Shown here: in pieces, positions 1 through 55,103 of the stretch
Layout of the letters: every line of letters starts with the position of its first letter
Numbering within the stretch: the first letter of the stretch is position 1
Source: Myxococcus guangdongensis
GTDB lineage: Bacteria; Myxococcota; Myxococcia; Myxococcales; Myxococcaceae
Assembly: GCF_024198255.1 (NCBI RefSeq)
Contig: NZ_JAJVKW010000007.1
Coordinates: forward strand, 434,001 to 498,000
Length of the DNA: 64,000 bases
Direction of reading: 5' to 3'
Notes under the pieces: model-generated
Told to the model about the DNA's origin: nothing
What the model saw: only the letters and a program-made list of their open reading frames with translations
Database searches by the model: none
Made by a program: the position numbers and the translations under genes

Positions 1-2322
1 CTTGTACGCCGCGTTCGCGTAGTCGTGGAGCTGCGTCACCGGGAACGACTGGATGGTGCCGATGGGCGAGCCGTTGTTGTTCCAGCGCCACAGCACCGTG
101 CCCGTGGTGGCGTTGAGCGCATAGGCCACGCCGCTCTGGTCCGCCGTGAGGATGTACTGACCCGCCAGGCCGTTGAGCGGCACCACCGGGAAGCGGCTGC
201 CGATGAGCCCCGACAGGGGCAGCGGACGCCAGCGCTCCGCGCCATCCTCGGAGGGGTTCGTGACGTTCGTCAGGTTGGCGACGACCGAGTCATTGAAGGA
301 GCTGAAGATGCCCACGCCCAGCTCGGTGATCGGCTGGAGCCGCGCGTCCAGGCCCACCGAGTAGCACCACAGAGGCGCAGAGCCCACGGGAGCCCGGGGC
401 GTGGCCAGCAGCGCCACCGAGGCCGTGGGGCGATTGCCCGCCGAGTACAGCCCCACGTCATCCGAGTTGTAGACGCGGTAGTAGTACGTCGTGCCGTTGA
501 CGACGCTCGTGTCCGTGAAGGACGTCGCCGCACTGAACGACTCCGACAAGACGACGGTGGCGTTGCCCAGCGTCGCACCCGCCGCATACGTCCGGCCCGC
601 GACGGGCGCCGTGTTGGGCGCGGCCCCCACCGAGCGCAGGATGAGCACCCCGTTGTGCACCGAGGGGTTGTCCCATGTCACCGTCACGCTGGCATCACGA
701 GCCACCGCGGTGAGGCGCTCGACCTCCGGCGCCAGGCCCGTGGCGAGCACCATCGGCGTCTCGATGCGAGCGGAGGCGTCCGACGCGTAGGCCCCCGGGA
801 GGTGCACGCGGTGACGGAACGCGGTGGGCGCGGTGACGTTGCCCACCGCGGAGTACGTCACCGTGAAGGTGCGCTCCTGGTTGGGCATGATGCGAACGGA
901 GTTCAGCAGCGCCAGCCACGTGTAGCTCGCCGAGGCCGTGTCGTAATAGACCATCCACCCAGAGGGCGCGGGCGGGTTGCCATTGATGGCGAAGAAGTTC
1001 ACCGGCGGCCGGAGCAGCTTGACCTCGTCGAGCGGCATCGTGCCCCGGTTCTGCACGGTGTACGTCACCGTCTGGTTGCCCTGTCCGGGCACCAGCACCG
1101 ACGGGCTGGCAATCACCCGGTGCCTGACGACACGGCCCTCGGCCGAGCGCACCACCGGCGTCGAGACCGTGGCGCCGTTCAGCGTCGCGTCCGCCTGGAC
1201 ATCGAACGCATAGGAGGAGAACTCCTCGCCGGTGACGGTGTAGCTCCAGATGAAGTGCGCGGAGGCCCCCGGCGCCAGCCGCGCCACGCTGGCCGGGCTG
1301 GGACCCGACGCGAGCACCGCCTGCGCCGAGCCGACCAGCACCGGCGCCCGAGGCGTCACGTTCAGATACGAGCTCGTGGGCGACGAGTTGGTGACGCTCA
1401 GGCGGACCTTGACCGTGTCCCCCGTGAAGGCCTGGGTGCTGTCCACGTCGCCCGCGGCGGCCAGCGGCCCCACGTTCACCATGGGCGTGTCCGCGACGTT
1501 CGACGTGACGGAGGCCGAGCCGTTGCGCCCGCGGACGCTCGCCACCATGGTTCCAGCCGTCAGCGTCGTGGCCCTCGCGACGAGGATTCCCGCCCCGCGC
1601 TGGGGGATGGTCACCGCGAAGTTCCCGGGCTGCACCTCGACGACCTGGTACGTCACGCCACCCGCGCCCGCGCTCGGGCCCTCGGCCGTGATGTTGGTCT
1701 GGTTCGCGGTGGAGGTGCGGTTCTCGATGACCAGGCGCGCGGTGAGGTCCTCCCCCACTCCCATCGCGCGCGGGGTGATGTCCACGCGGGTCGACAGGCC
1801 CACGCGCTGCCACTCCGCGGCGTCCGCGGTGCGATTGGTGCCGAACGACAGGTTGCCGCACGCCTCGTGCGCGGAGAGCGCCGTCGTGAACTGCTGCCCC
1901 GTGGCGTTCGTCGCGCTGATGTTCGGAATCATCCGCAGCGTGAAGGTCGCCGTCTCGTTGTACATCAACCCGGCATCCGCGCCCGCGCAGTTGACCGGGA
2001 GGTTGTAGCGGACGTTGCGCGTCGCCACGTTGTGGGTGGCGATCCATCCATCGGGCGCGGGGCTCTCCAACAGCGTGTACCCCGTGGGCAGCACGAAGTT
2101 GACCTGGTTGATGGGACGGAACTGCGGCGAGTTGGCGCGCGTGTTGTTGCGCACCTGGACGCGCAGCTCGGACACCTCGTCCATCACCACGGTGGCCACC
2201 GCATCCCCCGGTCCGGGGAGCGTGGTGAAGACGGCGGCGCGCGTGGTGCTCTGCGCCAGCGCGGCCGAGGGCAGCACCAGCGCGGCGAACAGCGCGGCGA
2301 GGCGGGCGTGGACGGACTTCAT
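1..2322 (-). CDS. Large secreted protein with CARDB/DUF11-like repeats and a beta-propeller start, 3' end missing
   Basis: This open frame starts at an ATG (2322) and is still open at the left edge, so only the first 774 codons are present. The N-terminus is a clear signal peptide (MKSVHARLAALFAALVLPSA). The body is built of beta-rich modules of about 100-150 residues with Asn/Thr-rich strands, of the CARDB/DUF11 type seen in bacterial surface proteins. These are followed by a fibronectin-like segment (TYYYRVYNSDD). The last visible stretch (YALNATTGTVLWRW) is typical of PQQ-type beta-propeller blades. It is the last gene of the S26-PqqD-lipoprotein run, starting 17 bases after the lipoprotein stop. 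It probably acts outside the cell or in the outer envelope. The function is not known, and the propeller call rests on one blade. Confidence 0.8.
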   Translation of the reverse strand, partial: MKSVHARLAALFAALVLPSAALAQSTTRAAVFTTLPGPGDAVATVVMDEVSELRVQVRNNTRANSPQFRPINQVNFVLPTGYTLLESPAPDGWIATHNVATRNVRYNLPVNCAGADAGLMYNETATFTLRMIPNISATNATGQQFTTALSAHEACGNLSFGTNRTADAAEWQRVGLSTRVDITPRAMGVGEDLTARLVIENRTSTANQTNITAEGPSAGAGGVTYQVVEVQPGNFAVTIPQRGAGILVARATTLTAGTMVASVRGRNGSASVTSNVADTPMVNVGPLAAAGDVDSTQAFTGDTVKVRLSVTNSSPTSSYLNVTPRAPVLVGSAQAVLASGPSPASVARLAPGASAHFIWSYTVTGEEFSSYAFDVQADATLNGATVSTPVVRSAEGRVVRHRVIASPSVLVPGQGNQTVTYTVQNRGTMPLDEVKLLRPPVNFFAINGNPPAPSGWMVYYDTASASYTWLALLNSVRIMPNQERTFTVTYSAVGNVTAPTAFRHRVHLPGAYASDASARIETPMVLATGLAPEVERLTAVARDASVTVTWDNPSVHNGVLILRSVGAAPNTAPVAGRTYAAGATLGNATVVLSESFSAATSFTDTSVVNGTTYYYRVYNSDDVGLYSAGNRPTASVALLATPRAPVGSAPLWCYSVGLDARLQPITELGVGIFSSFNDSVVANLTNVTNPSEDGAERWRPLPLSGLIGSRFPVVPLNGLAGQYILTADQSGVAYALNATTGTVLWRWNNNGSPIGTIQSFPVTQLHDYANAAYK

Positions 2323-35111: not shown

Positions 35112-37268
35112 CTATTCGGCGCGAGGCACGTAGACAGCGACGCTGCGCGCAGGGACCACCAACTGGGTCTCCGTGCCGGCGAGCTGCAGCGTCCTCCCGC
35201 TGAAGACGTCCACGTACGTCGCGGCGCTGGCCGCCAGGCTCCCCAGGGGCTCCACCACCAGCGGGCGGTCCACGTCGCTCCGGTTGATGGCCACCACCGC
35301 GCCCTGCCCGTCCGGCAGCGAGCGCTGGTACACGTACAGGTCCTTCTCCACGCGCAGGGTGTGCCGCGAGCCCGTCTGCAGCGCCGGTGACGTCCGCCGC
35401 GCCTGACCCAGCTTGCGCACGTGCTCGAGCAGGTCCGCCTCCAGCGCGGTGAGCGTGGAGTCGAAGCGCATCAGCCGCCGGTTGTCGGGGTCTCCCGCGC
35501 CGGGCAGGCCCACCTCGTCGCCGTAGTAGATGAGCGGCACGCCGGGCTGGGTGAGCACGAAGGTGAAGCCGTACTTCGCCTTCTCGAACGCGGCCGCGTC
35601 CGTCACCGTGGCCGCCGGGCGCGCGCTGCTCCAGGGGTCTCCCCCCTCCCCGTCCAGCTGCTTCGCGGCCTGGGACATGAAGCGGGCCACGTCATGGTTG
35701 CCCAGGAAGGGCGAGTTGAGCGTGCCGGGCGCGTAGAAGACCTCGTTCTCGCGCACCGCCTGGTCCACGCGCTCCAGGCTCTGTCCGTCCGCGAAGGCCT
35801 CGCGCACCGGCCAGTACAGCGGGAAGTCGAACTGGCCATCCAGCTCACGGGGGCTGATGTAGCGGGCGATCTGCGAGCGGCCATCCGCGCCCACGAAGGT
35901 CTCACCCACCAGGTAGAACTCGGTGCCCGTCATCGCGGTGAGGTCGCGCAGGCGCCCGCGCAGGGTGCGGCCAGCCACCTGGTCCATGTGCTTCACCGCG
36001 TCCATGCGGAAGCCGTCGAAGTCCGCCGCCTCCAGCCACCACAGCGTGTCCGCGATGAACTGGTCCACCATGTTCGACGAGCGCCAGTTGAAGTCGGGCA
36101 GGTAGTCGGTGAACTTGCACGTCAGCCGCTTCTCCTCCCAATCGCAGTCCTGGCTGCCGCACACGCAGCTGGCGGAGGTGTTGAACCAGTCGTCGTCGCG
36201 GTGGGTGACCCAGTACGGGTGCTCCTGGTGCACGTGGTTGAGCACCAGGTCGGCGATGACGCGGATGCCCTTCGCGTGGGCCGCGGCGGTGAGGGCGCGC
36301 AACTCCTCGAGCGAGCCGAAGCGGTGCTGCGTGGTGCGCGGCTTCGTGGGCCAGTAGCCGTGGTAGCCCGAGTAGTACTTGCCGCCGGTGCCGATGAAGC
36401 GGCCCTCGGGGTTCTGGTCCACGGGCGAAATCCACAGCACCTTGACGCCCAGCGAGTCGAAGTAGCCGTCCTCCAGCTTGCGGGTGATGCCGGCGAAGTC
36501 TCCGCCCTGGTAGTTGGCGATGGGGTCCACGTCCGCCACCGGCCCGTCATTCTCCGCGCGGGCGTTGAGAAAGCGGTCCGTGAAGGCGAAGTACATCAGC
36601 CCCGACTCCCACCGGAACTTCTGGGGCTCCACCCAGAACGGCAGGTAGAGCGGCTCGGCCGCGCGGCCCGCGGCGTCCGTGGCCACCACCTTCACGTGGT
36701 GCTTGCCCTGCCCCAGCGCCTCCTCGTGCAGGGTGATGCGGCCCGTCTTCGCGTCGAACGCGTCGGGGCGGGGCTGGCCATCCAGCGTCACCACCACCTT
36801 GCCCTCGTCGGGGCCCGCCTCGTCGGTGCCGTCGACGTACGCCACGTCCACGTCCAGTACGCCCTGGGGCGAAGCGGCGAAGCGGCGAAGCTCCAGCACC
36901 GGCTGCCGACAGTCGGGCACCGTCAGGCGCGAGAACTCCTCCGCGCGCACCCAGCGGGAGTACGGATTCTGCGGGTCCATCACCTGCTGCTGGCCGATGA
37001 CGAAGCGGTAGCCGTAGTCGCGCGGCTCCAGCCCCTCCAGGCGCGCGGTGAAGACGCCGTCCCCCCGGTCCGCCATGCGCAGCGCGGTGGAGGAGAAGCC
37101 ATTCCACTCGCCCGCGACGGTCACCGCGCCCACGAGCGACTGCTGCGGCGCGTACGTCAGCATCACCTCGCAGGTCCGGACGGGAATGGAGTCTTCGGAG
37201 TCACCACAAGCCGCGGAGAGGAGCAACACCGGAAGCGCGAGCGAACGGACCATGCGGGAGTGCGTCAT
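35112..37268 (-). CDS. Alpha-amylase-family (GH13) lipoprotein
   Basis: A 718-residue lipoprotein (LLLSAACGDSED) that should hydrolyse alpha-glucans at the cell surface or in the periplasm. An N-terminal glycogen-binding-like domain (AVTVAGEWNGFSS) and a second beta domain precede the GH13 barrel. The four conserved regions are present: DLVLNHVH, GFRMDAVKH (nucleophile Asp), LVGETF (acid Glu) and FLGNHDVARF. A Cys-rich insert (SCVCGSQDCDWEEKRLTC) sits after region I. The C-terminal beta domain is complete. The exact specificity (amylase, pullulanase, maltogenic) is not resolved. Confidence 0.92.
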   Translation of the reverse strand: MTHSRMVRSLALPVLLLSAACGDSEDSIPVRTCEVMLTYAPQQSLVGAVTVAGEWNGFSSTALRMADRGDGVFTARLEGLEPRDYGYRFVIGQQQVMDPQNPYSRWVRAEEFSRLTVPDCRQPVLELRRFAASPQGVLDVDVAYVDGTDEAGPDEGKVVVTLDGQPRPDAFDAKTGRITLHEEALGQGKHHVKVVATDAAGRAAEPLYLPFWVEPQKFRWESGLMYFAFTDRFLNARAENDGPVADVDPIANYQGGDFAGITRKLEDGYFDSLGVKVLWISPVDQNPEGRFIGTGGKYYSGYHGYWPTKPRTTQHRFGSLEELRALTAAAHAKGIRVIADLVLNHVHQEHPYWVTHRDDDWFNTSASCVCGSQDCDWEEKRLTCKFTDYLPDFNWRSSNMVDQFIADTLWWLEAADFDGFRMDAVKHMDQVAGRTLRGRLRDLTAMTGTEFYLVGETFVGADGRSQIARYISPRELDGQFDFPLYWPVREAFADGQSLERVDQAVRENEVFYAPGTLNSPFLGNHDVARFMSQAAKQLDGEGGDPWSSARPAATVTDAAAFEKAKYGFTFVLTQPGVPLIYYGDEVGLPGAGDPDNRRLMRFDSTLTALEADLLEHVRKLGQARRTSPALQTGSRHTLRVEKDLYVYQRSLPDGQGAVVAINRSDVDRPLVVEPLGSLAASAATYVDVFSGRTLQLAGTETQLVVPARSVAVYVPRAE

Positions 37269-37378
37269 GCGAGCGCCTTTCTACGGGAGGCCCGCTCGGT
37301 TTTCCAAGCCCCCACCCGGCACCTTTTTGACTCACCGCATCACACCCCGGCATTGACGGGCACCGGACAGAGCGCTCC

Positions 37379-37400
37379 CACCTGCCCCTGGGGACAGGTG
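37379..37400. promoter_or_regulatory. Operator-like palindrome upstream of the DUF4331 gene
   Basis: CACCTGCCCCTGGGGACAGG plus TG is an imperfect 22-base palindrome (9 of 11 positions in each half match). It lies about 94 bases before the ATG at 37494. It could be a repressor site for this gene or for the divergent amylase, whose start is 110 bases away. No other clear element is seen in the 225-base gap. Confidence 0.4.
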
Positions 37401-37493
37401 CCAGGGCCCCACCCACTGGGTATGGAAGCGTCCCCGGCGAATGGCGCCCCATCAAGATTCGCGGCCGCTCGGGCACACCTCACAGGAAAACCC

Positions 37494-38864
37494 ATGAGCG
37501 CTTCCGGACTGGCCTCGCGTCTCGTCGTGGTCTCACTGCTGTGCTCGGCTTCGCCGACCTGGGCCTCGAGCCATCGGGAGGCACCCCTCATCAGCAACGA
37601 TCCGGCGGCCGACGGCACGGACATGTACGCCTGGAAGCAGGGCACCAACCTGGTGCTGGTGGCGAACTACTACCCCATCGGGATTCCCTACGGCGGCCCC
37701 AGCTACTACCTGTTCGACGACAACGTCCTCTACGAAATCCTGGTCGACCAGACCGGGGACGGCGCCCCCGACGTGCGCTACCAGTTCCGCTTCCGCACGC
37801 AGATCCGTCCCAGCCCCCTCCCCTCGGTGGGGACGGTGGCCGGCTACAACCCCTACCGGGACTCGTTCCTCTACGCGTTCGCGGGCGTGAAGAGCGCCAC
37901 CTCGCCGGAGATCCTCCGCTATCAGACGTACACGTTGACGAGGCTGGCCGGAGGCTCGCAGCAGGTCATCCTGAAGGACGTGCCGGTGGCGCCCAACAAC
38001 GTGGGCCGACTGACGACGCCCGGGTATCCCCAGGCCACCGCCACCACCGCGGTGGACCCCATCACCCAGAGCGCCATCCAGGGCGGAGGGACCGGGGTCG
38101 CCGCCAAATACAAGGTGTTCGCCGGCCCTCGCGATGACCCGTTCTTCGTCAACCTCTCCAAGACGTTCGACTTCCTCGACTACAGCGGCCAGCCCAACCG
38201 CGACGACCTCGCCGGGCTGAACGTGCTGTCGATGATCATCGAGGTGCCCCTGACCGAGTTCAGCTCGCCCCACCTGGGCATCTGGACCACGGCCAGCCGG
38301 CCCAAGATCACCACCCGCCGTCCTGACGGCGGTGTCGACACCCAGGGCGGCTGGGTCCAGGTGTCCCGGCTGGGCAATCCGCTGGTGAACGAGGTGATCG
38401 TCCCGGTGAAGTTCAAGGACTTCTTCAACGCCTCCAAGCCCCAGAACGACCTGTCCACGCCCACCATCGTCGCCATCGTCACCAACCCCGAGCTGCCCCA
38501 GCTGCTCCAGGCCAAGGGCTTCATTCCCCTCGCGCCGCCGGCGCCGCGCACGGACCTGGCCACCATCTTCACCCGCGACACCCAGGGGCGACCCTCGGGG
38601 GAGATGCTCCACATCAACACCGGCGTGGACACCGCGTTCCCCAACGGCCGTCGGCTCACCGACGACGTGACGGACATCGCGCTCAAGGCAGTGGGCGGAG
38701 CGTTCTACACCACGTTCGCCGACGGAGGCCCCGCCATCCTTCCCGACGGAGGTGGAACGTTCGCGGCCGCGGCGAGCGGCCTCAGCGACGGGGTGAACGC
38801 CAATGACAAGGCGTTCCTCTCCACGTTCCCGTACCTGGCGGCGCCCCACTCCGGCAACCCCTGA
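37494..38864 (+). CDS. DUF4331-family secreted protein
   Basis: A 456-residue protein with a signal peptide ending at SPTWASS. The family start SSHREAPLISNDPAADGTDMYA is unmistakable for DUF4331, whose function is unknown. The C-terminal part contains RRLTDDVTDIALKAVGG, also typical. AGGA precedes the ATG at good distance. It is followed 10 bases later by a TPR gene, a pairing that suggests a shared envelope role. Confidence 0.9.
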   Translation: MSASGLASRLVVVSLLCSASPTWASSHREAPLISNDPAADGTDMYAWKQGTNLVLVANYYPIGIPYGGPSYYLFDDNVLYEILVDQTGDGAPDVRYQFRFRTQIRPSPLPSVGTVAGYNPYRDSFLYAFAGVKSATSPEILRYQTYTLTRLAGGSQQVILKDVPVAPNNVGRLTTPGYPQATATTAVDPITQSAIQGGGTGVAAKYKVFAGPRDDPFFVNLSKTFDFLDYSGQPNRDDLAGLNVLSMIIEVPLTEFSSPHLGIWTTASRPKITTRRPDGGVDTQGGWVQVSRLGNPLVNEVIVPVKFKDFFNASKPQNDLSTPTIVAIVTNPELPQLLQAKGFIPLAPPAPRTDLATIFTRDTQGRPSGEMLHINTGVDTAFPNGRRLTDDVTDIALKAVGGAFYTTFADGGPAILPDGGGTFAAAASGLSDGVNANDKAFLSTFPYLAAPHSGNP

Positions 38865-38874
38865 GCCCCGCGCC

Positions 38875-40179
38875 ATGGCCTCTCGACCTCTGCTGTCCCT
38901 GGGCGTGGCGGTGCTCGCCATCAGCGCGGGGGGGCTCGCCGCGTGGTGGCAGCGCCCCCCTCGCGACGAGGCCGGCGCACTCGCGCCGGAGTCCCCCGTG
39001 GCCCGCCTGACGCGAATGCAGCAGAGGGCATCGCCCGAGGACTCGATGGCCCAGGGGCGGCTCGCCACGCTGTGGATGACCGAGGCCCTGCGCTCCGGGA
39101 GCGAGGAGCAGGTGACACACGCGCGCCTCGCCGCCCGTCGTGCCCTGCTCGTGGACCCGGAGCGCGTGGACGCCCTCAAGGTGGAGCTGTTGCTGCTCCA
39201 CCATGACCACCAGTTCCGGGAGCTGCGCGACGCGGCACGCTCCCTGACGACGCAGCACCCTCACGACGCCTTCTTCCAGGGGATGCTCGGAGACGCCGAG
39301 CTGGAGCTGGGGCGCTTCGACGAAGCCGAGGCCGCGTACACGCGAATGATGGACCTCAAGCCCTCTCACGCCACGTACACGCGCGTGGGCTATCTCCAGT
39401 TGATGCGCGGCGAGGTGAACGCGGCCCTCGACAGCCTCAAGCTCGCCGCGAGCTCGGTGGACCGGATGGACGGGAACAGCGTGGCCCGGGCCCTGTGCGA
39501 AATCGGTGATGTGTACCTGGCCCGAGCGGACCCGGACACGGCGATGGAGTACTTCGACGTCGCGCTGACCCATGCGCCTGGGTTGGGCCGGGCGCACGCT
39601 GGACGCGGTCATGTCCTTCGTGCGCGGGGGCAGGACACGGCGGCCATCGAGGCCTACCGCGCGGCCCTGGCGGCCTCCCCTCACGGAGGACATCGCGCCT
39701 CGCTCGCCGATGCACTCGAGGCGGCTGGACGGACGCCGGAGGCTCAAGCCGAGTACCAGCGAGCCCTCGCGGACAGCGCCGAGGATGCCCGCGAGCAGGC
39801 GCGGCTGATGCTGGACCTGGGCCTGGACATCGGCCGCGCGGAGACGCTCGCACGTGCCGAGCTGACGCGCCGACAGGATGTCCTCACGCAGGCGGTGTTG
39901 GCTCAGGCACTCGTCAGTGCGGGCAAGGTGGACGAGGCCCGTCCCCTGGTCGCCGCGTTCCTGCGCGCGGGGACCCGACATGCGCGGCTCGACCTCGTCG
40001 CGGGGCTCGTGGCCTCCGCGAGCGGAGAGCCGGTCGCCGCTCGCCAACACCTGGAAGCGGCCTTGAGGGGCTTCCCGCCCCTTCCGCCGCGGCAACAAGC
40101 GCGAGCCCGCGCGCTGCTCACGCCCCTCGCCGCCCCCGTCCAGGCCAGCGCTCGTCCCCCGAGCACCGCGGGCCCATGA
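38875..40179 (+). CDS. TPR-repeat protein with N-terminal membrane anchor
   Basis: A 434-residue protein. One N-terminal hydrophobic helix (LSLGVAVLAISAGGLAAWW) anchors it, and most of the rest is made of tetratricopeptide repeats (for example AFFQGMLGDAELELGRFDEA and AHAGRGHVLRARGQDTAAIE), giving about 8-9 units facing the periplasm. It is probably a scaffold for the adjacent DUF4331 protein. ATG 38875 lies 10 bases after the DUF4331 stop. Its last codons fall inside an 88-base duplication. Confidence 0.87.
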   Translation: MASRPLLSLGVAVLAISAGGLAAWWQRPPRDEAGALAPESPVARLTRMQQRASPEDSMAQGRLATLWMTEALRSGSEEQVTHARLAARRALLVDPERVDALKVELLLLHHDHQFRELRDAARSLTTQHPHDAFFQGMLGDAELELGRFDEAEAAYTRMMDLKPSHATYTRVGYLQLMRGEVNAALDSLKLAASSVDRMDGNSVARALCEIGDVYLARADPDTAMEYFDVALTHAPGLGRAHAGRGHVLRARGQDTAAIEAYRAALAASPHGGHRASLADALEAAGRTPEAQAEYQRALADSAEDAREQARLMLDLGLDIGRAETLARAELTRRQDVLTQAVLAQALVSAGKVDEARPLVAAFLRAGTRHARLDLVAGLVASASGEPVAARQHLEAALRGFPPLPPRQQARARALLTPLAAPVQASARPPSTAGP

Positions 40180-40368: not shown

Positions 40369-42915
40369 CTACTGCTGCGACGAGCCCGTCACCCCCTCGT
40401 ACTCCTGGAGCGCGCGCAGCACCTTGCTCGCCTGGGGGTGGCTATTGGGCGCCAGGTCCAGGAAGAGGCGGTAGTGCTTCGCCCCCTCCTCCTTGCGCCC
40501 GAGCCGGGCCTCCACCGAGCCCAACAGCAGGTGGCACTCGTAGTTCCCGGACTCCACTGCGATGCACTCGCGGGCCTTCGTCCTGGCCGGCTCGTACTGC
40601 TTCGACTTGAGCAGCTCGCGCACCTCGGTCAGCAGCTTCTCGCCCGGGCTCTCGGGCTCGGGCGTCTCGTCGATGACCAGCGAAGACCCCGACCGGGGCG
40701 ATGAGGGGCCCTTCGCGGAGCCCTGGCGCTGGGGCGGCGGAGGGGGCTCCGTCGGACGAGCCGCATCGGCGTCGGCCTGCTCCACCGCGCCCTTCGCGGA
40801 CGTGATGCGGACCTCCACCTGGCCCTGGTTGTCCGTCGGATCATCGTCGACGAAGCCGCAGTGGAGCCCATGGACGCCCGTGATCGGGACGTCCGAGCCT
40901 TGCGAGAGGAGGAAGCGCCTCGCGCGGGCCGGAGGCGTCGCGGGACCATCGCGCTCCAGGGACACCTGCTGGACACAGGCCACCGTCACCACCGGCCCCT
41001 GCTCCGGGCCGCGGGTGAAGGCGCCCGAGCCCACCGACGACAGCGACAGCGTGTAGCTGTCCGTGGGGTCCATCCCGTCCAGCAGGAAGCTACGGCCCAC
41101 GTCGGTGACCATCCACTCCGGGTGGATGAGCAGCTTACGCTCCTGATGGGTGCTCGTGTTCACCACGGAGACGATGCGCTCGGGCAAGTCATCCTGGGGC
41201 GTGGGCCCGCCCACCGTGAAGACCATCACCGACGCGGCGCCCGCGGGCGGCGTGTCACGACCGACGATTCCCACCGCCGCATCCGCCGCGATGTTCTTCC
41301 CCGTCAGCAGGTAGAAGAGGCTCGGCAGGGGCTTGCTCCGGTCCGCCGCGGTCAGCGCGGTCGACTCCATGACGCGGTAGGTGTGCGCCGGGTCCATCGC
41401 CCCCAGCGCCGCGCGCCCCGAGGACACCGCGAAGAGGTGCCGGGCCGCGTCCAACCGGAAGGAGGGAACGGGCATCCGGGCGAAGTCCACGCCCTCCTTC
41501 CTGGGCGTCGCCACCACCTGCTGCGCCGGCTTCGCGACGGGCGTCCCCGGCGCCACGCGAGGCGCGTCCGCGTCCTTCAGCTGCGGGCCAGGGAGGGGCG
41601 GCCTCGCCGGCCCCGCGTTCGCGGGCTTGTCCGGCGGCATCCAGTCCGCCTTCAGCCGGTCGAACGACGACCACAGCAGCACCAGCAGGATGAGCACCCC
41701 CGTGCCCACCACGACGTGGTGCGTGGAGACGCGGAAGCCGTTCTCGAAGAAGCCGCCCCGGTCCGGCGAGTTGCCGTCCGTGTCGTCCTCGTCCTCCGAC
41801 AGGCCCTCACCGCCGTCGGGCAGCTCGCTCGGGTGGCTCTCCTGGGTCCTGGGCTCCGTGCGCAGCTCCGGGGCCGACAGCTCCGTGGGCCGGGGCAGCA
41901 GGTTGGTGGTGGCACGCCAGACGGACAGCTCCTCCACGAACGAGGCGGGGACCTTGGTGTCCTTGCCCAGCTCCGTCATGTCGGGCCGGAACAGCTCGCG
42001 CAGCAGATAGGCGGCGGACATCGCGGAGAAGCGCGGCGCGGCCTTGAAGAGGAACCCCGCGAGCGCGTCACCGAAGGCATGCGCCGACTCGAAGCGGTCC
42101 TCCTTCCGCACCGCGAGCGCCTTGTGGAGGATGGCGTCCAGGCGCACCGGCACGTCCGGCCGCACGTCCCGCGCACGCGGCATCGGCTGGCGCGTGTGCA
42201 GCTTGTGCAGCACCGCGTACTCGGGCCCCTCCAGGGGAAGACGGCCGCACACCATCTCGAACAACACCACCGCCGTGGCCCAGACGTCCGTGCGCGCGTC
42301 CACCTCTTCGCCCCGGGCCTGCTCGGGGGAGAAGAACAGGTACTTGCCCTTCACCACGCCGGGCGCGGTGTCGAAGCTGCGCAGCGAGCGCGCCTTGGCG
42401 ATGCCGAAGTCGACAATCTTGACCTGGCCCTCGTAGCTGATGAGGACATTGTCCGGGGAGATGTCCCGGTGGACGATGTGCAGCGGCTCGCCCTTGTCGT
42501 CCGTGCGCGTGTGCGCGTAGTGCAGCCCCCGGCACATCTCCAGGGCGATGTACGTGGCGATGGGCACCGGCAGGCTGGCGAACTGCGAGCGCAGCGCGCG
42601 CTTCATCACCTTGTTGAGCGGCTGCCCGTCCACGAACTCCATGGCCAGGAAGTACTCGCCATCCACCTGCCCGAAGTCGAAGACCTGGGCGATGGCGCCG
42701 TGCGACAGCGAGGCGGAGATGCGCGCCTCGCTGATGAACATGGAGACGAACGCCTCGTCGTTGGCGTACTCCGGCAACACCTTCTTGATGAGGACTGGCT
42801 TGGTGACCCCCGCGGCCCCCAACAGCTGGGCCCTCCAGGTCTCCGCCATCCCCCCACGGCCGATTCGGGACTGGAGTTCGTACCGGCCAAACTGTTCGTG
42901 CTGCGGATTCGCCAT
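40369..42915 (-). CDS. Receptor-type Ser/Thr protein kinase, array copy 1
   Basis: An 848-residue kinase. The cytoplasmic kinase (residues 10-285) has the glycine loop IGRGGMAETW, Lys44, HRDISPDN (Asp151) and DFG (169-171); APE reads SPE. A conserved tail follows (295-334), then an acidic/Pro linker and a single membrane helix (about 398-418). Outside it has a beta-rich sensor-like domain (about 480-708) with Cys647 and Cys686 (GLHCGFVDD) and one TPR-like unit (760-840) with Cys784 and Cys794. All catalytic residues are intact, so it should phosphorylate Ser/Thr. It is the most distal member of five paralogues. Confidence 0.93.
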   Translation of the reverse strand: MANPQHEQFGRYELQSRIGRGGMAETWRAQLLGAAGVTKPVLIKKVLPEYANDEAFVSMFISEARISASLSHGAIAQVFDFGQVDGEYFLAMEFVDGQPLNKVMKRALRSQFASLPVPIATYIALEMCRGLHYAHTRTDDKGEPLHIVHRDISPDNVLISYEGQVKIVDFGIAKARSLRSFDTAPGVVKGKYLFFSPEQARGEEVDARTDVWATAVVLFEMVCGRLPLEGPEYAVLHKLHTRQPMPRARDVRPDVPVRLDAILHKALAVRKEDRFESAHAFGDALAGFLFKAAPRFSAMSAAYLLRELFRPDMTELGKDTKVPASFVEELSVWRATTNLLPRPTELSAPELRTEPRTQESHPSELPDGGEGLSEDEDDTDGNSPDRGGFFENGFRVSTHHVVVGTGVLILLVLLWSSFDRLKADWMPPDKPANAGPARPPLPGPQLKDADAPRVAPGTPVAKPAQQVVATPRKEGVDFARMPVPSFRLDAARHLFAVSSGRAALGAMDPAHTYRVMESTALTAADRSKPLPSLFYLLTGKNIAADAAVGIVGRDTPPAGAASVMVFTVGGPTPQDDLPERIVSVVNTSTHQERKLLIHPEWMVTDVGRSFLLDGMDPTDSYTLSLSSVGSGAFTRGPEQGPVVTVACVQQVSLERDGPATPPARARRFLLSQGSDVPITGVHGLHCGFVDDDPTDNQGQVEVRITSAKGAVEQADADAARPTEPPPPPQRQGSAKGPSSPRSGSSLVIDETPEPESPGEKLLTEVRELLKSKQYEPARTKARECIAVESGNYECHLLLGSVEARLGRKEEGAKHYRLFLDLAPNSHPQASKVLRALQEYEGVTGSSQQ

Positions 42916-42979
42916 TGCGGCTTAGGGTATCCCGGGGCATCCCGTTCAAAAAGGGTCGTCAGGGAATACCCGCGACCTC

Positions 42980-45900
42980 TCATCGCCCGAGGGGCGGGGG
43001 CGTTTTCCCTGAATTTGTCTGGCCATACGTCTGGAGGATTTCATTCACCGAGCGCGCCTCGGGGTGGTTGGGGTGGCGCTTGACGAAGGTCTGGTAGCGC
43101 TCGAGGGCGCCCTCGGTCCTCCCGAGCAGGAGTTGCATGCCCCCGGACAGGACGAGGCAATCGGGATGCTCGGGGGCAATGCGCAGACAGTCCTCGGCCA
43201 GCAGGAAGGCGTCGTGGTGTTGCCCGGCGCGGGCCAGCCGTTGTCCCTGGAGCGCCAGGCGCGCGGCCTCCTCTTGATTCGCGGGTGAGGGCCGGCGCGT
43301 CTTCTCCCATGGGGTGACGTGGACCTCGGCCTCGCCCTCGTTGTCGAAGCTGGCGTCGTCGATGAAGCCGCATCGCAGGCCCCGGATGCCTCGGACGCGG
43401 GCCTCCCGCCATTCGGAGATGAGGAACTGCAGGGGTTGCTCGGCGTGGGCGACGGGCTCCGCGGTGCTCGGGGCGTCCTCGTGGGGAGACCCTTCGAGGC
43501 AGGCCACCTGGGCGGCGGGCCCATGCGCGCGGCCTCGGAGGAACACGCCCTCCCCTCTCGGCGTGAGTGAGAGGGCATACGTCTGCCGGGCGTCGAGTCC
43601 CTTGATGAGGAAGCCCTTGCGGGCGGAGATGCGCATGGGCTCGGGGTGGAAGGTGAAGCGCTGCTGGTCCTCGGTGTTGACCTTGCGGAGGTAGACGGAC
43701 TGGGGCGAGAGGTCCTCGCGCGTGGGCTCGCCGAGGGTGAACAGCGAGATGGCCCGGACGCCCTGGAGGGTGATGGGGTTGCGGGACACGATGCCCTCGC
43801 GGACCTCGGGGCGGACCGCGTCGCCGGAGAGCAGGAAGAAGACGAGGGGCTCCCTGCGCGGTGTGGGCTCGTGGATGAGCGGGTCGGCCGCCCCCTTGGC
43901 CTGCGTCATGCCCCAGAAGCTGTAGCTGGCCAAAGCGTCGAGGCGGGAGAAGGCCACCAGGTCGAGCGGCACGCGCAGGACGTGTCGCTTCGAGTCGAGC
44001 ACGAAGGTCGTCTCCTTCGGGTACTCACCCACGGACTCGGGCGCGTCGGTGGGCGCGGTGCTGTCGGCGACGGGCGAGCCGTGGAGTGGCTCGGAGTCCA
44101 CGGGTGGCGGTGTGATGGGGGACGCGGTGGTCGACCCACCAGCGCCTGGCTGGGGGCGGGTGGGGTTCGCGTCACCGGGCGCTGTGGGCGTGGGGATGGG
44201 TTGGGTCGGGGAGACATCCTCGGGCTCTGACTGCCTCGAGGCGATGAACGGGATGGCCACCGCGAGGACGAGCAGCACGGCGGCGCCCGCGGCGATGAGG
44301 GTTCGACGATGCCGCTTCGGGGCGGAGATGGAGGCGAGCCGGACCGTGGGCGCGTTCGCGGCGGGAACCGGGTTCTGCGCGACCGGGGACGCGTTCGCGG
44401 CGCGAGCCGAGGCCTCCTGATTCGACATGGGGGCGGTCCCGGCGGGCAGCGTGCGACGCGGCGGTGGCGCCGCGGGGACAGGCGCTGGAGGAACAGCGTC
44501 CGAGCGAAGCAACTCCGTGGGCGCGCTCGCGGCGCGTGTCGCGGCGATGGGGATTCCCATGGGCGTCGGGCCCAAGGTGTGGGTGCGACGTGGAGGCAAT
44601 GAGGGAAGGCCCGGCGTCACGGGAACGGAGCCGGCGTGAAGCAGCTCCGTGGGTGCGCTCGCCGCACGCGACGCTGACTCCGGGAGGGCCATGGGCGCCT
44701 GGCCCAGGGGATGCGTGCGACGTGGCGGAGCGGAGGTCGCCAGGGGACCTGAGTGCCCCTCCGTGGACACGCTCGCGCCGCGAGTCGAAGTGTCCTCGAC
44801 GAGCTGGGGCACCGGGCCCAGGGTGTGCGTGCGACGTGGCGGCGGAGCTGAAGCAGCCGGGGTCCCTGAGGGACCCTCCGTGGCGGTGTTCGCCGCGCGC
44901 GCCGACACATCCTGGATGACCATGGGCATCGAGCCCGAGGTCTGGGTGCGACGGGGCGACGACGAGGCAGGCCCTGGGACCGAGGGGAACCGCACCGTGG
45001 GCGTGATCACGGACGACGGGGGGTCGTGAACCGCCGAGGAGAGCGCGGCCGCGGTCTGGGTGCGGCGCGGTGGCGAGGCCGAGCCCTCCGACGAGGTCGA
45101 AGCGGAGACCGAGAACGCGGGCATCGTGTCATCGGCCGAACCAGGTAACGCGTTCGAGCTCTGAGTCCGACGCGGTGGCGTCGTCGATGAAAGTCCCGCC
45201 GCGGCGGTCATCGCGGCGAGCGAGAACTCCGGCAGCGTGGACTCGGGAGCATCGGGGACCACCGCGGGCAGTGAGCCCTCCGTGCGAGTGCGACGGGGCG
45301 GCGGCGACGATGAAGTCCCGGCGGGGCTCGATGCGGAGAGCGAGAACGCAGGCACCGTGAGCTCGGGGGCCTCGGGCTCCACCGCGGGCAGGGAGCCCGC
45401 CGTCTGCGTGCGACGTGCTGGCGACCGCGCCCCGGAAGTGTTGGCCGTGGACGCGGGTACCTCGCCCGACGTCTGAGTTCGACGCGGTGGCGAGGACGAG
45501 GGCCCTGGCGTCGTCGGGCTGGAGACCGAGGATGATTTCCCACCAGGAGGGCTCGGCGTCTCCCCCGAGGATGCCGCACCGCCAGGCATGGCACGGGGAC
45601 CGGAAGTCACCGCGGACCGGGGCGGCGTGGACCGAGCCGCCAGCCCTGGCGTCGAGACGCGCGGCGTCGGTGCCGACGAGGCGCCACCGCTCACCGAGCG
45701 CTCCCCTGCCCCCAACTCCCCTCGCGTCGTCTTCGCATCCTTCGACGAAGGTCCAGGCGTCGTGGGCCGAGTGGACGACGCCGGCGGCGGACCTGACACC
45801 GCGGGACGCATCCCGGCCCCCACGCCGGGCGTCGTGGGACGAGCATCCTCGGGCGTCACATCCGGCAGCGGGGCTCGGAGTCCCGAGCCGGGCGACTCCT

Positions 45901-46903
45901 GCTCGCGCCACGTCGTCAGCTCCTCCACGAAGGCGGGAGGGACCCGGAGCTCGCGGCCGTCCTTCTGCAAATCCTCCCGGAAGAGCTCACGGACCAGGTA
46001 CGCCAGGTTCATCGTCGAGAACCGGGGCGCGAACGAATAGAGGAACGCGGCCAGCGTATCGCCGAAGGCATTGGCGGACTCGAAGCGCCGCGCCACGTCC
46101 ACCGACAGCGCCTTCATGATCAGCTCATTCAGCTCGGGGGGCAGCTCCTTGCGCAACTGGATGGGTGGCGGGAAGTCGCCGTGGGCCATCCGGGTGAGGA
46201 CCACCGGCTCGGGGCCCACCACGGGAGGCTGGCCACAGAGCATCTCGTACAACACCAACCCCGTGGCCCAGATGTCCGTGCGCGCATCCACGTCGTGCCC
46301 CCGGGCCTGCTCGGGGGAGAAGTACAGGTACTTGCCACGCACCACACCGGGCTCCGTGTGGAAGCCGCGCAGCATGCGGGCCTTGGCGATGCCGAAGTCG
46401 ACGATCTTGACCTGGCCCTCGTAGCTGATGAGGACATTGTCCGGAGAGATGTCCCGGTGGACGATGCCCAGCGGCACGCCCTTCTCGTTCGTGCGCGTGT
46501 GCGCGTAGTTCAGTCCCCGACACATCTCCAGGGCGACATAGACGGCCAGGGGAATGGGCAGACGGGGCAGGCCCATCCGCGCGCCACGCTTCAGGACGCG
46601 ATTGAGCGGCTGTCCATCCACCAGCTCCATGGCCAGGAAGTACTGGCCATCCATCATGCCGAAGTCGAAGACCTGCGCGACGTTCCCGTGGGAGAGCGAA
46701 GCGGAGATGCGCGCCTCGCTGATGAACATGGAGATGAAGGCGTCGTCGTCGGCGAACTCGGGCAGGACCTTCTTGATGAGGACGGGCTTGGTGACTCCGG
46801 CGGCGCCGAGCAGGAGGGCGCGCCACGTCTCCGCCATGCCTCCACGGCCGATCAGGAACTGCAGTTCGTAGCGTCCGAACTGCTCATGTGGATCATGCGC
46901 CAT
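42980..46903 (-). CDS. Receptor-type Ser/Thr protein kinase, array copy 2, with ten PRRT repeats
   Basis: A 1307-residue kinase, the longest of the five. Catalytic residues are Lys44, Asp151 (HRDISPDN) and DFG (169-171). Between the kinase tail and the membrane helix (about 867-888) lies some 520 residues of Ser/Thr/Pro-rich cytoplasmic sequence. It holds ten copies of P(P/A/S)RRT(Q/H/R/L)x at roughly 24-44-residue spacing (from about residue 472 to 815), plus PTTPG motifs. The outer part (about 965-1200) matches the domain of copies 1 and 3, with Cys1135 and Cys1178 (GLRCGFIDD). A TPR-like unit with C-X9-C (Cys1239, Cys1249) closes it. Confidence 0.92.
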   Translation of the reverse strand: MAHDPHEQFGRYELQFLIGRGGMAETWRALLLGAAGVTKPVLIKKVLPEFADDDAFISMFISEARISASLSHGNVAQVFDFGMMDGQYFLAMELVDGQPLNRVLKRGARMGLPRLPIPLAVYVALEMCRGLNYAHTRTNEKGVPLGIVHRDISPDNVLISYEGQVKIVDFGIAKARMLRGFHTEPGVVRGKYLYFSPEQARGHDVDARTDIWATGLVLYEMLCGQPPVVGPEPVVLTRMAHGDFPPPIQLRKELPPELNELIMKALSVDVARRFESANAFGDTLAAFLYSFAPRFSTMNLAYLVRELFREDLQKDGRELRVPPAFVEELTTWREQESPGSGLRAPLPDVTPEDARPTTPGVGAGMRPAVSGPPPASSTRPTTPGPSSKDAKTTRGELGAGERSVSGGASSAPTPRVSTPGLAARSTPPRSAVTSGPRAMPGGAASSGETPSPPGGKSSSVSSPTTPGPSSSPPRRTQTSGEVPASTANTSGARSPARRTQTAGSLPAVEPEAPELTVPAFSLSASSPAGTSSSPPPRRTRTEGSLPAVVPDAPESTLPEFSLAAMTAAAGLSSTTPPRRTQSSNALPGSADDTMPAFSVSASTSSEGSASPPRRTQTAAALSSAVHDPPSSVITPTVRFPSVPGPASSSPRRTQTSGSMPMVIQDVSARAANTATEGPSGTPAASAPPPRRTHTLGPVPQLVEDTSTRGASVSTEGHSGPLATSAPPRRTHPLGQAPMALPESASRAASAPTELLHAGSVPVTPGLPSLPPRRTHTLGPTPMGIPIAATRAASAPTELLRSDAVPPAPVPAAPPPRRTLPAGTAPMSNQEASARAANASPVAQNPVPAANAPTVRLASISAPKRHRRTLIAAGAAVLLVLAVAIPFIASRQSEPEDVSPTQPIPTPTAPGDANPTRPQPGAGGSTTASPITPPPVDSEPLHGSPVADSTAPTDAPESVGEYPKETTFVLDSKRHVLRVPLDLVAFSRLDALASYSFWGMTQAKGAADPLIHEPTPRREPLVFFLLSGDAVRPEVREGIVSRNPITLQGVRAISLFTLGEPTREDLSPQSVYLRKVNTEDQQRFTFHPEPMRISARKGFLIKGLDARQTYALSLTPRGEGVFLRGRAHGPAAQVACLEGSPHEDAPSTAEPVAHAEQPLQFLISEWREARVRGIRGLRCGFIDDASFDNEGEAEVHVTPWEKTRRPSPANQEEAARLALQGQRLARAGQHHDAFLLAEDCLRIAPEHPDCLVLSGGMQLLLGRTEGALERYQTFVKRHPNHPEARSVNEILQTYGQTNSGKTPPPLGR

Positions 46904-46955
46904 GAGTGCCCCCCCGGGCCTTGCGCGGAAGATACGACAGGTCGCGAACGAACGC

Positions 46956-49364
46956 TCACCGCGATGGGTCCACCCCTTCCAGACCTGACAACAAGCCCTT
47001 CACGACCTCCGTCTGTGCATGCCGGGGATGCAGCTCGAGGAACCGGCGATAGAGGCGCTCCGCCTCGTCCGGGCGCCCCTCCAGCGTCGACGCCGTCGCG
47101 GACATGAGCAGACATTCCGCGTGCTGGGGGGCCATGGACAGACACTTCTCTCCCAGGGAGAGCACGGCCCCGGAGTCCCCGGACCGCAGCCGCTGCCGCA
47201 TCTCCTGGACGAGCGCTCCCACGTCCACGTTCCGTGGCTTCTTCGAAGGTGGAGGTTTGGACGGCTCCTGCGCCTGCTTCTCGATTCGCATCCGCAGCGC
47301 GCCCGAGTTGTCGTCCACGCTGTCATCGATGAAGCCGCACCGCAGCCCGAGCACGCCGCGGACGCGCTGCTCGGTGCCGATGGAGAGGAGGAACTGGAGC
47401 AGGGCCCCTTCCCTCTCGGACCTGGGGGCATTGCGTGGCGCGGCCCCCGCGTCGGGCACCCACTGCGCGCAGATGACGGTGCGCGCGGGCCCGGCCTTGG
47501 GCCCATGGAGGAGCGCGTCTTGCTCGGTCGCCTCCAGCGTCAGCGCATACGTCACCATCGGGTCCAACCCGGTGAGCGTGAGCGCCCGCTTCAGGAGGAG
47601 TCCTTCGGCGTCCGGGTCGAAGGTCATCGCCTGGAACGCCTCGCGGGTCCGGCCGGCGAGGCGGATGTTGCGCCAGGGCGTGGAGCGGGGACTGGGCGGT
47701 CCCAGCCGGAACAGCGCGACCGAGCGAGCCCCCGAGAAGCGCATCGGGGCGATCGGCACCTGGCCGAGGCGGTTGGCCTCGGGGAGCTGGTCCGCGTCAC
47801 CGGACAGCAGATGGAAGACCCGCGTCGGTCCATCGGCGCCGGGCGCGAGGACCTCGGGCGCCTCCTGCGTGGGTCCGCTCGCGTCGCCGAGCGCGTAGGT
47901 CTTCGAGGGGTCGAGGTCCACGAAGGCGTGGAACTTCGGAGGCACGATGATGACATCACGGTCCGCCTCGAGCGTCAGCTCGCGCACGGGATACGCGATG
48001 ACGGCGGGAGGACGCAGCTCGCCCGCCACGGGTCGCGTGTCACGGCCCTCCGTCGGTGTGCTCGTGGAGTCCGAAGGGAGGGCTCGGGCGATCAGGACTC
48101 CGGTGAGCACCGTGCCGAGCACCCCGAGTGACGCGAGTCCCGCCACCCTCCATTTCCTGGAGAGCCACAGGCGCGACAAGAGCCCGAGCGCGCCGAGCAC
48201 CTGGGTGGGCGGCTCACCGGAGAACCGCGAGGCATCGAGCACGGTCCGGTCCAGGTCGGGGTTCCGGGCCAGGGGCGTGGCGCCGGGGTACGGAGCGGCG
48301 GGGAGCTCCAGCGTCTCCCGAGGGTGCGGCTTCGAGGGAGGTGGACGGGCGCGGGCCTCGGAGGTGCGCCAGGACGCGAACTCCTCCTCGAAGGAGCGAG
48401 GGACGGTCAGGGTGCGTCCGTCCTTCTGGAGGTCGTCGCGGAAGAGCAGCCTGACGCCGTACGCCAGGTCCTGGGAGGAGAACGAGCGGGTCTGGGAGTA
48501 GAGGAACTCGGCCAGTCCCTCGGCGAAGGCGTGCGCGGAGCGGTAGCGGGCGTCGAGGTCCACCGACAGGGCGGACATGATGAGCGCGTCCAGTTCGGGG
48601 GGGAGACTGGGGCGAAGCTGCCGGGGTGGAGGGAACTCGCCGTAGGCCAGACGCAGCATCACCGCGGCCTGGGTGCCGGTGACGGGCGGTTGCCCGCAGA
48701 GCAGCTCGTAGAGCACGAGGCCGGTGGACCAGACGTCACTGCGGGCATCGACCTCGAGTCCCTTGGCCTGTTCGGGGGAGAAGTAGAGGTACTTGCCGCG
48801 CACGACGCCGGGCTGGGTCTCGAAGTCGCGGGCCATGCGGGCCTTGGCGATGCCGAAGTCGACGATCTTGACCTGTCCCTCGTAGCTGATGAGGACGTTG
48901 TCCGGGGAGATGTCCCGATGGACGATGCCCAGGGGGGCGCCCTTCTCGTCGGTGCGCGTGTGCGCGTAGTGCAGGCCCCGGCACATCTCCAGGGCGATGT
49001 ACGCGGCGAGCGAAGGGGGAAGCCGAGGCAGCCCGAGTCTGGCGGCGCGCTTCAGGACGCGGTGGAGGGGCTGGCCATCGACCAGCTCCATGGCGAGGAA
49101 GTACTGGCCCTCGACGCGGCCGAACTCGAAGACCTGGGCGATGTTGCCGTGGGACAGCGTGGAGGAGATGCGCGCTTCACTGATGAACCGGGAGATGAAG
49201 TCCGAGTGGTTCGCGAACTCGGGCAACACCATCTTGATGAGGACCGGCTTGGTGACGCCCGCGGCACCGACGAGCTTCGCGCGCCAGGTCTCCGCCATCC
49301 CGCCCCGCCCCATGAGGGACTGGAGCTCATACCGGCCGAAGCGTTGGTTTCGTTCGGTGGACAT
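46956..49364 (-). CDS. Receptor-type Ser/Thr protein kinase, array copy 3
   Basis: An 802-residue kinase. The strand holding the ATP-contact Lys reads VLIKMVLPE, which shows that Lys44 is the catalytic one (the second Lys of the paralogues is Met here). HRDISPDN and DFG are intact. The membrane helix is at about 405-427. The outer domain (about 455-697) has Cys632 (TVICAQ) and Cys675 (GLRCGFIDD), and the TPR-like unit has Cys741 and Cys751. The juxtamembrane linker is short compared with copy 2. It starts 30 bases before the end of copy 4 on the same strand. Confidence 0.93.
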   Translation of the reverse strand: MSTERNQRFGRYELQSLMGRGGMAETWRAKLVGAAGVTKPVLIKMVLPEFANHSDFISRFISEARISSTLSHGNIAQVFEFGRVEGQYFLAMELVDGQPLHRVLKRAARLGLPRLPPSLAAYIALEMCRGLHYAHTRTDEKGAPLGIVHRDISPDNVLISYEGQVKIVDFGIAKARMARDFETQPGVVRGKYLYFSPEQAKGLEVDARSDVWSTGLVLYELLCGQPPVTGTQAAVMLRLAYGEFPPPRQLRPSLPPELDALIMSALSVDLDARYRSAHAFAEGLAEFLYSQTRSFSSQDLAYGVRLLFRDDLQKDGRTLTVPRSFEEEFASWRTSEARARPPPSKPHPRETLELPAAPYPGATPLARNPDLDRTVLDASRFSGEPPTQVLGALGLLSRLWLSRKWRVAGLASLGVLGTVLTGVLIARALPSDSTSTPTEGRDTRPVAGELRPPAVIAYPVRELTLEADRDVIIVPPKFHAFVDLDPSKTYALGDASGPTQEAPEVLAPGADGPTRVFHLLSGDADQLPEANRLGQVPIAPMRFSGARSVALFRLGPPSPRSTPWRNIRLAGRTREAFQAMTFDPDAEGLLLKRALTLTGLDPMVTYALTLEATEQDALLHGPKAGPARTVICAQWVPDAGAAPRNAPRSEREGALLQFLLSIGTEQRVRGVLGLRCGFIDDSVDDNSGALRMRIEKQAQEPSKPPPSKKPRNVDVGALVQEMRQRLRSGDSGAVLSLGEKCLSMAPQHAECLLMSATASTLEGRPDEAERLYRRFLELHPRHAQTEVVKGLLSGLEGVDPSR

Positions 49365-53705: not shown

Positions 53706-55103
<1,398 letters not shown>

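Follow-up and report, generated by a model that had tools for sequence, protein, structure and literature searches.

Predicted LecA-fold module pairs in the outer region of Hanks-type Ser/Thr kinases of Myxococcus guangdongensis

Five kinase genes and their neighbours

The window analysed here is a 64,000-nucleotide stretch of Myxococcus guangdongensis DNA (contig NZ_JAJVKW010000007.1, positions 434,001 to 498,000), and all positions below are those of the window. Its minus strand carries a tandem run of five Ser/Thr kinase genes, P0001 to P0005. Kinase 1 (P0001, 40369..42915, 848 aa) consists of a Pkinase domain at residues 12-278, a transmembrane (TM) helix at about 400-418, an outer domain at 481-709 that is described below as a predicted LecA-like pair, and a TPR pair at about 762-825. 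The same order is found in kinase 2 (P0002, 42980..46903, 1307 aa; Pkinase 13-278, TM about 869-887, outer pair 961-1201, TPR) and in kinase 3 (P0003, 46956..49364, 802 aa; Pkinase 12-278, TM about 407-425, outer pair 457-699, TPR). Kinases 4 (P0004, 49395..51395) and 5 (P0005, 51529..53643) have the same kinase type, a TM helix and two blocks of TPR; both lack the outer domain. Kinases 1-3 are of the Hanks type (PF00069, E about 1e-31 or better), with HRDISPDN and DFG motifs and a single TM helix each, and the topology read from their sequences places the outer domain on the extracytoplasmic side. PASTA repeats were not found with Pfam and NCBIfam profiles, and the NCBIfam PknB profile (NF033483) covers the kinase part only, residues 10-295, below its cut-off.

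Two further features of these proteins were observed. The linker that precedes the TM helix of kinase 2 (44300-45898, P0002 residues 336-868) is about 530 residues long, of low complexity and rich in Pro, Ser, Ala and Thr, and contains nine spaced PRRT repeats of the PPRRTQT/PPRRTHT type, which are possible candidates for phosphorylation sites. In each of the five kinases, all TPR blocks hold a conserved C-x9-C pair on the outer side of the membrane: C784/C794 in P0001, C1239/C1249 in P0002, C741/C751 in P0003, C465/C475 and C605/C615 in P0004, and C494/C504 and C645/C655 in P0005.

Divergent from the array, on the plus strand at 53706..55103, lies a gene for a protein with an FHA domain, a sigma54 activator domain and a Fis HTH, whose adjacency is conserved. 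Also on the plus strand, a DUF4331 protein (35421-38864) and a TPR protein (38803-40179) accompany the array in related species. Related loci show the array between the divergent FHA-sigma54 activator, adjacent to it in the syntenic loci read (L039-L047, L139-L147), and the convergent DUF4331/TPR region; the array comprises one to five or more kinases, with kinase 1 as the constant last member. All 27 genomes of the genus contain a close match to the activator, and 17 of them have a full-type kinase 1. At three loci of genomes of about 9 Mb, the kinase at the place of kinase 1 keeps kinase, TM and TPR parts without the outer domain (L144:9481-11682; L145:6904-9669; L146:9908-11812). Since these kinase 1 orthologues occupy the same locus, the outer domain is an optional part of the protein.

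FHA domains bind phosphothreonine. Further, activators of the FHA-sigma54 type are known from M. xanthus development (Jelsbak 2005, as cited in PMC12288465). Given both, the synteny makes the neighbouring activator a natural candidate for an output of the kinases.

The outer domain, its duplication and its predicted fold

A sequence-only reading of this DNA had proposed that kinases 1-3 share, after the TM helix, an unfamiliar domain of about 230 residues, marked by two invariant cysteines, a GLxCGF(I/V)DD motif, a DN-x-G end and, in the same order, a LLTG/LLSG strand and V-x-x-(F/L)-x-(L/V)-G. All of these are present. The domain spans 229 residues in P0001 (481-709), 241 in P0002 (961-1201) and 243 in P0003 (457-699); the copies of kinases 2 and 3 are 35% and 31% identical to that of kinase 1. 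Each has exactly two cysteines (C647/C686, C1135/C1178 and C632/C676 in P0001, P0002 and P0003), spaced by 39, 43 and 44 residues. The first sits in an (A/I)C element and the second in GLHCGFVDD (P0001) or GLRCGFIDD (P0002 and P0003), followed by DNQG, DNEG and DNSG, respectively; the LLTG/LLSG strand and (V/I)xxFx(L/V)G are found in all three. A profile built from the three copies recovers more relatives in the own genome, to E about 1e-11, and has matches in 37 of 61 relatives, so on profile evidence the resemblance is homology and not chance. With domain profiles the own-genome count came to six copies and then to a total of seven, the weakest match having E 1e-10; the seventh is a diverged copy (G000:C22:59782-60411, in an 827-aa frame, E 1e-10).

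Beyond what had been noticed earlier, the domain is an internal duplication, two copies of one module of about 115 residues. Aligning half against half with hhalign gave E 4.6e-10 for all sequences and E 3.9e-16 for the PEGA-type set (see below), in which the two halves end alike (LHVFALDD..DDNSG in the first, LHCTFPD..DDNRG in the second). On the minus strand, the first modules lie at 41143..41475 (kinase 1), 43667..44023 (kinase 2) and 47637..47993 (kinase 3), and none has the Asp/Asn loop. That loop follows the two cysteines in each second module, at 40795..41142 in kinase 1 (C647, C686, D690-x4-D695-N696-x-G698), 43307..43666 in kinase 2 (C1135, C1178, D1182-x4-D1187-N1188-x-G1190) and 47274..47636 in kinase 3 (C632, C676, D680-x4-D685-N686-x-G688).

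No Pfam or NCBIfam profile covers the outer domain of kinases 1-3, and PDB sequence searches with phmmer and hmmsearch returned only short fn3-like matches around GLDPxTTY. The PA-IL profile PF07828 matched neither the domains nor any protein of 142 Myxococcia genomes, the own genome included. Identification by sequence alone was thus tried and gave no family, known ligand-binding families included; since the PF07828 match fails, the domain is not, by sequence, a member of that family.

Structure prediction was more informative. AlphaFold2 returned an all-beta model for the whole outer domain of P0003 (pLDDT 92.7) and an eight-stranded model for its second module, modelled alone (pLDDT 86.3). 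When the latter was compared with the PDB (VIA), the six best rows were all lectins of the LecA/PA-IL family: the N-terminal domain of EclA (6ygq, Z 9.7), three entries of PA-IL/LecA and two of PllA (2vxj, 9.6; 4cp9 and 1l7l, both 9.4; 5odu, 9.2; 5ofz, 9.1), superposed over the whole module (93 residues, rmsd 2.3-2.6 Å). The next row had Z 7.8. For the whole-domain model, LecA was the only row above Z 8 (2vxj, 8.9). Chance arrangement alone often yields Z of 7-8, and beta sandwiches commonly reach middling values; what counts is therefore that a single family leads to the exclusion of others, and does so across the entire module. Foldseek alone placed mixed jelly rolls on top with poor E-values, none below 0.001. 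From the models, we consider it very likely that the modules have a LecA-like fold. The domain is therefore unfamiliar in sequence, being unnamed in Pfam and NCBIfam, but not in its modelled fold. The VIA alignment range of the whole domain, 8..247, may suggest a strand exchange between the two modules of the pair.

In a survey of other carriers, every homologue of sufficient length for a verdict was a transmembrane Ser/Thr kinase of the class Myxococcia. The homologues follow two main plans, kinase-TM-domain-TPR, as in kinases 1-3, and kinase-TM-PEGA-domain, which the tree separates into two supported sides; some relatives of kinase 3 have no detectable TPR. The domain has matches in 92 of 147 Myxococcia genomes and in none of 48 further genomes of the phylum outside the class, and a contig search with short patterns from the three-row alignment found it in Myxococcus and Pyxidicoccus only. 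Two adjacent weak, partial matches in the genome that is most distant within the class (G145:C1:74276-76826; L110, L118) may be single-module or diverged relatives.

The cysteine pair and the candidate Ca2+ loop

Across 94 homologues, both cysteines are present in 69, neither in 24 and one alone in 1, and other cysteines are scarce in these domains (10 in 22,711 residues). Because the two behave as a pair, a disulfide between them is quite likely. In the second-module model of P0003, the fourth strand (53-58) holds C632 and the seventh (97-101) holds C676. A canonical jelly roll has the sheets BIDG and CHEF; the two strands would be its E and H, which are neighbours there, so that the cysteines should lie on adjacent strands. 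We rejected the coupling as a strong statistic (Fisher p 1.7e-21), as the homologue tree shows 2-3 changes only, and its supported branches account for just one independent pair. The cysteines are not, however, the defining signature that they had seemed: the pair occurs in all 43 TPR-type domains; of the 44 PEGA-type ones, 20 have it and 23 have neither cysteine. The disulfide is probably structural rather than a redox switch.

The most constant motif of the 94 homologues is instead the Asp/Asn/Gly loop. At the D680 position (P0003 numbering) Asp is found in 93 of the 94 aligned homologues, at D685 Asp in 81 and Gly in 9, at N686 Asn in 86 and at G688 Gly in 94; D680, N686 and G688 rank among the most constant columns of the outer domain. 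The side-chain ligands of the LecA loop before the last strand (Asp, Asp/Asn, Asn) thus have their residues present in the second module. In EclA the Ca2+ ligands are the side chains of Asp114, Asp121 and Asn122 and the main-chain oxygens of Asn54 and Gln118 (PMC11875179). The model aligns over its residues 1-121 with EclA residues 19-133; as read from the ends of this range, with the last strand assumed ungapped, model D109-N110 (P0003 D685-N686) would fall on Asp121-Asn122, and D680 would correspond to Asp114 across a loop that is two residues shorter (D-x4-DN versus D-x6-DN). The predicted Ca2+-binding loops lie on the minus strand at 40822..40848 in kinase 1 (residues 690-698, placed by alignment), 43334..43360 in kinase 2 (residues 1182-1190) and 47301..47327 in kinase 3 (residues 680-688, placed by alignment and by fold comparison with EclA). 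On the strength of the model, the second module probably binds Ca2+. Of the 44 PEGA-type domains, 31 keep the corresponding D..DNxG loop in the first module, against none of the 43 TPR-type ones; kinases of the type of kinases 1-3 therefore have one candidate site, not two.

Proposed working, alternatives and known systems

We hold, with moderate confidence, that kinases 1-3 are Hanks-type receptor kinases bearing a tandem pair of LecA/PA-IL-fold modules with a Ca2+ loop in the second, and that this pair is a probable ligand sensor. The jelly-roll pair would sit on the extracytoplasmic side of the receptor kinase; its second module would keep Asp-x4-Asp-Asn-x-Gly where lectins of the LecA family hold Ca2+, the first having lost the loop, and the disulfide would brace the site, with strand H leading straight into the Asp/Asn loop. 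The Ca2+-loaded module would bind a ligand in the envelope or outside the cell, a glycan being the simplest case; this binding would change the arrangement of the extracytoplasmic part and switch the kinase through the single TM helix, with the FHA-sigma54 activator beside the array as one output. A glycan as the natural ligand is a tentative proposal by analogy. Somewhat more doubtful is a wider scheme of Myxococcia-confined lectin receptor kinases, in which a Ca2+-dependent, two-lobed LecA-fold sensor would read envelope, kin or prey glycans, the neighbouring FHA activator would drive sigma54 transcription and the arrays would diversify between species.

In EclA, the N-terminal LecA domain retains Ca2+, yet no sugar ligand is known for it, and it does not conserve the sugar-contact residues of LecA (PMC11875179). 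For this reason the main rival is that the pair binds no small ligand and serves as a spacer, a dimerisation or a protein-docking module, in which Ca2+, if bound, would only stiffen the fold. The loss of the first-module loop in the TPR-type domains would fit such a scaffold, as would the domain-less kinase 1 orthologues that persist at the same locus. However, the loop of the second module is nearly invariant in an otherwise diverged domain (mean column identity 39% in alignment A2), which suggests a retained site, and we regard a scaffold role as rather unlikely. The sequence-only reading had offered two roles for the cysteines, reporting of the envelope redox state or holding of a ligand site. 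A pair that opens and closes with the redox state and reports to the kinase would agree with two co-conserved cysteines outside the membrane, but the 23 cysteine-free PEGA-type homologues keep the domain, the C-x9-C pairs of the TPR parts make paired cysteines the rule here, and neighbouring strands E and H fit a static disulfide. Redox sensing is thus improbable; the ligand-site half fares better, with the candidate site moved from the cysteines to the Asp/Asn loop after the second of them.

It is also conceivable that the domain is an fn3 or another common beta sandwich, and that the LecA lectins rank first through a chance likeness among jelly rolls. The short fn3-like matches point that way, as do weak Pfam fn3 matches in 5 of 28 members (best E 0.019, too weak to count as a match to the fn3 profile) and the picornavirus capsid jelly rolls that follow in the structure comparison, at Z 7-7.7. 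No fn3 structure appears among the rows listed for the second-module model, which does not by itself exclude that fold. Given that a single lectin family fills the six best rows, that these extend over the entire module and stand 1.3-1.9 Z above the rest, and that the conserved Asp/Asn loop falls on the Ca2+ loop of the LecA lectins, we consider this explanation very improbable, and a lectin-fold sensor remains the reading that we prefer.

The pair resembles the LecA/PA-IL lectins (LecA, PllA and EclA-N; PF07828) in the predicted jelly roll over the whole module and in the position of the putative Ca2+ loop between the last two strands, with the Asp..Asp-Asn side chains of EclA. It differs in the missing sequence-profile match, the shorter loop, the conserved cysteine pair and the tandem arrangement with one degenerate loop; and while those lectins are free-standing soluble proteins or are fused to a carbohydrate-binding domain, here all full-length carriers are transmembrane kinases. 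Closer to home, the PEGA-domain Ser/Thr kinases of Myxococcia (L037 and L038 in the own genome) share a homologous kinase and a homologous module pair outside the membrane, but have PEGA between TM and pair, no TPR, optional cysteines and usually the Asp/Asn loop in both modules.

PASTA kinases of the PknB/PrkC type follow a receptor-kinase plan with a repeated extracytoplasmic domain. Kinases 1-3 share this plan, although they have no PASTA and match PknB in the kinase part only. Xanthomonas PknS is a Hanks-type receptor kinase whose extracytoplasmic region modulates phosphorylation and which acts on a transcription regulator, and a diversity of outer domains is well documented among receptor Ser/Thr kinases (PMC13147305). 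The receptor plan and a regulator as output would be common to both systems, while the output of PknS is an ECF sigma factor. As far as we could tell within the searches made, the predicted LecA fold would be a new sensor fold for this class; a literature search, with subscription journals mostly outside its scope, found no paper on the outer domain or on LecA-fold kinases.

The LecA fold is known from soluble lectins, and would, if our reading is true, extend to membrane signalling. Myxobacteria hold very many Ser/Thr kinases, and to our knowledge the signals that these read are mostly unknown. A named fold and a predicted metal site turn an anonymous outer domain into a receptor that can be tested for ion, ligand and output, and the orthologues of kinase 1, which at a single locus either carry the domain or lack it, provide a natural comparison. 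Finally, in plant lectin receptor-like kinases an outer domain of lectin fold is joined through one TM helix to a Ser/Thr kinase on the inside. The comparison is one of working: the parts are the same, with the lectin fold predicted only in our case, while the plant lectin fold is unrelated in structure and origin and the N-to-C order is opposite. In this sense, as the models suggest, kinases 1-3 may represent a bacterial equivalent of the lectin receptor kinases.
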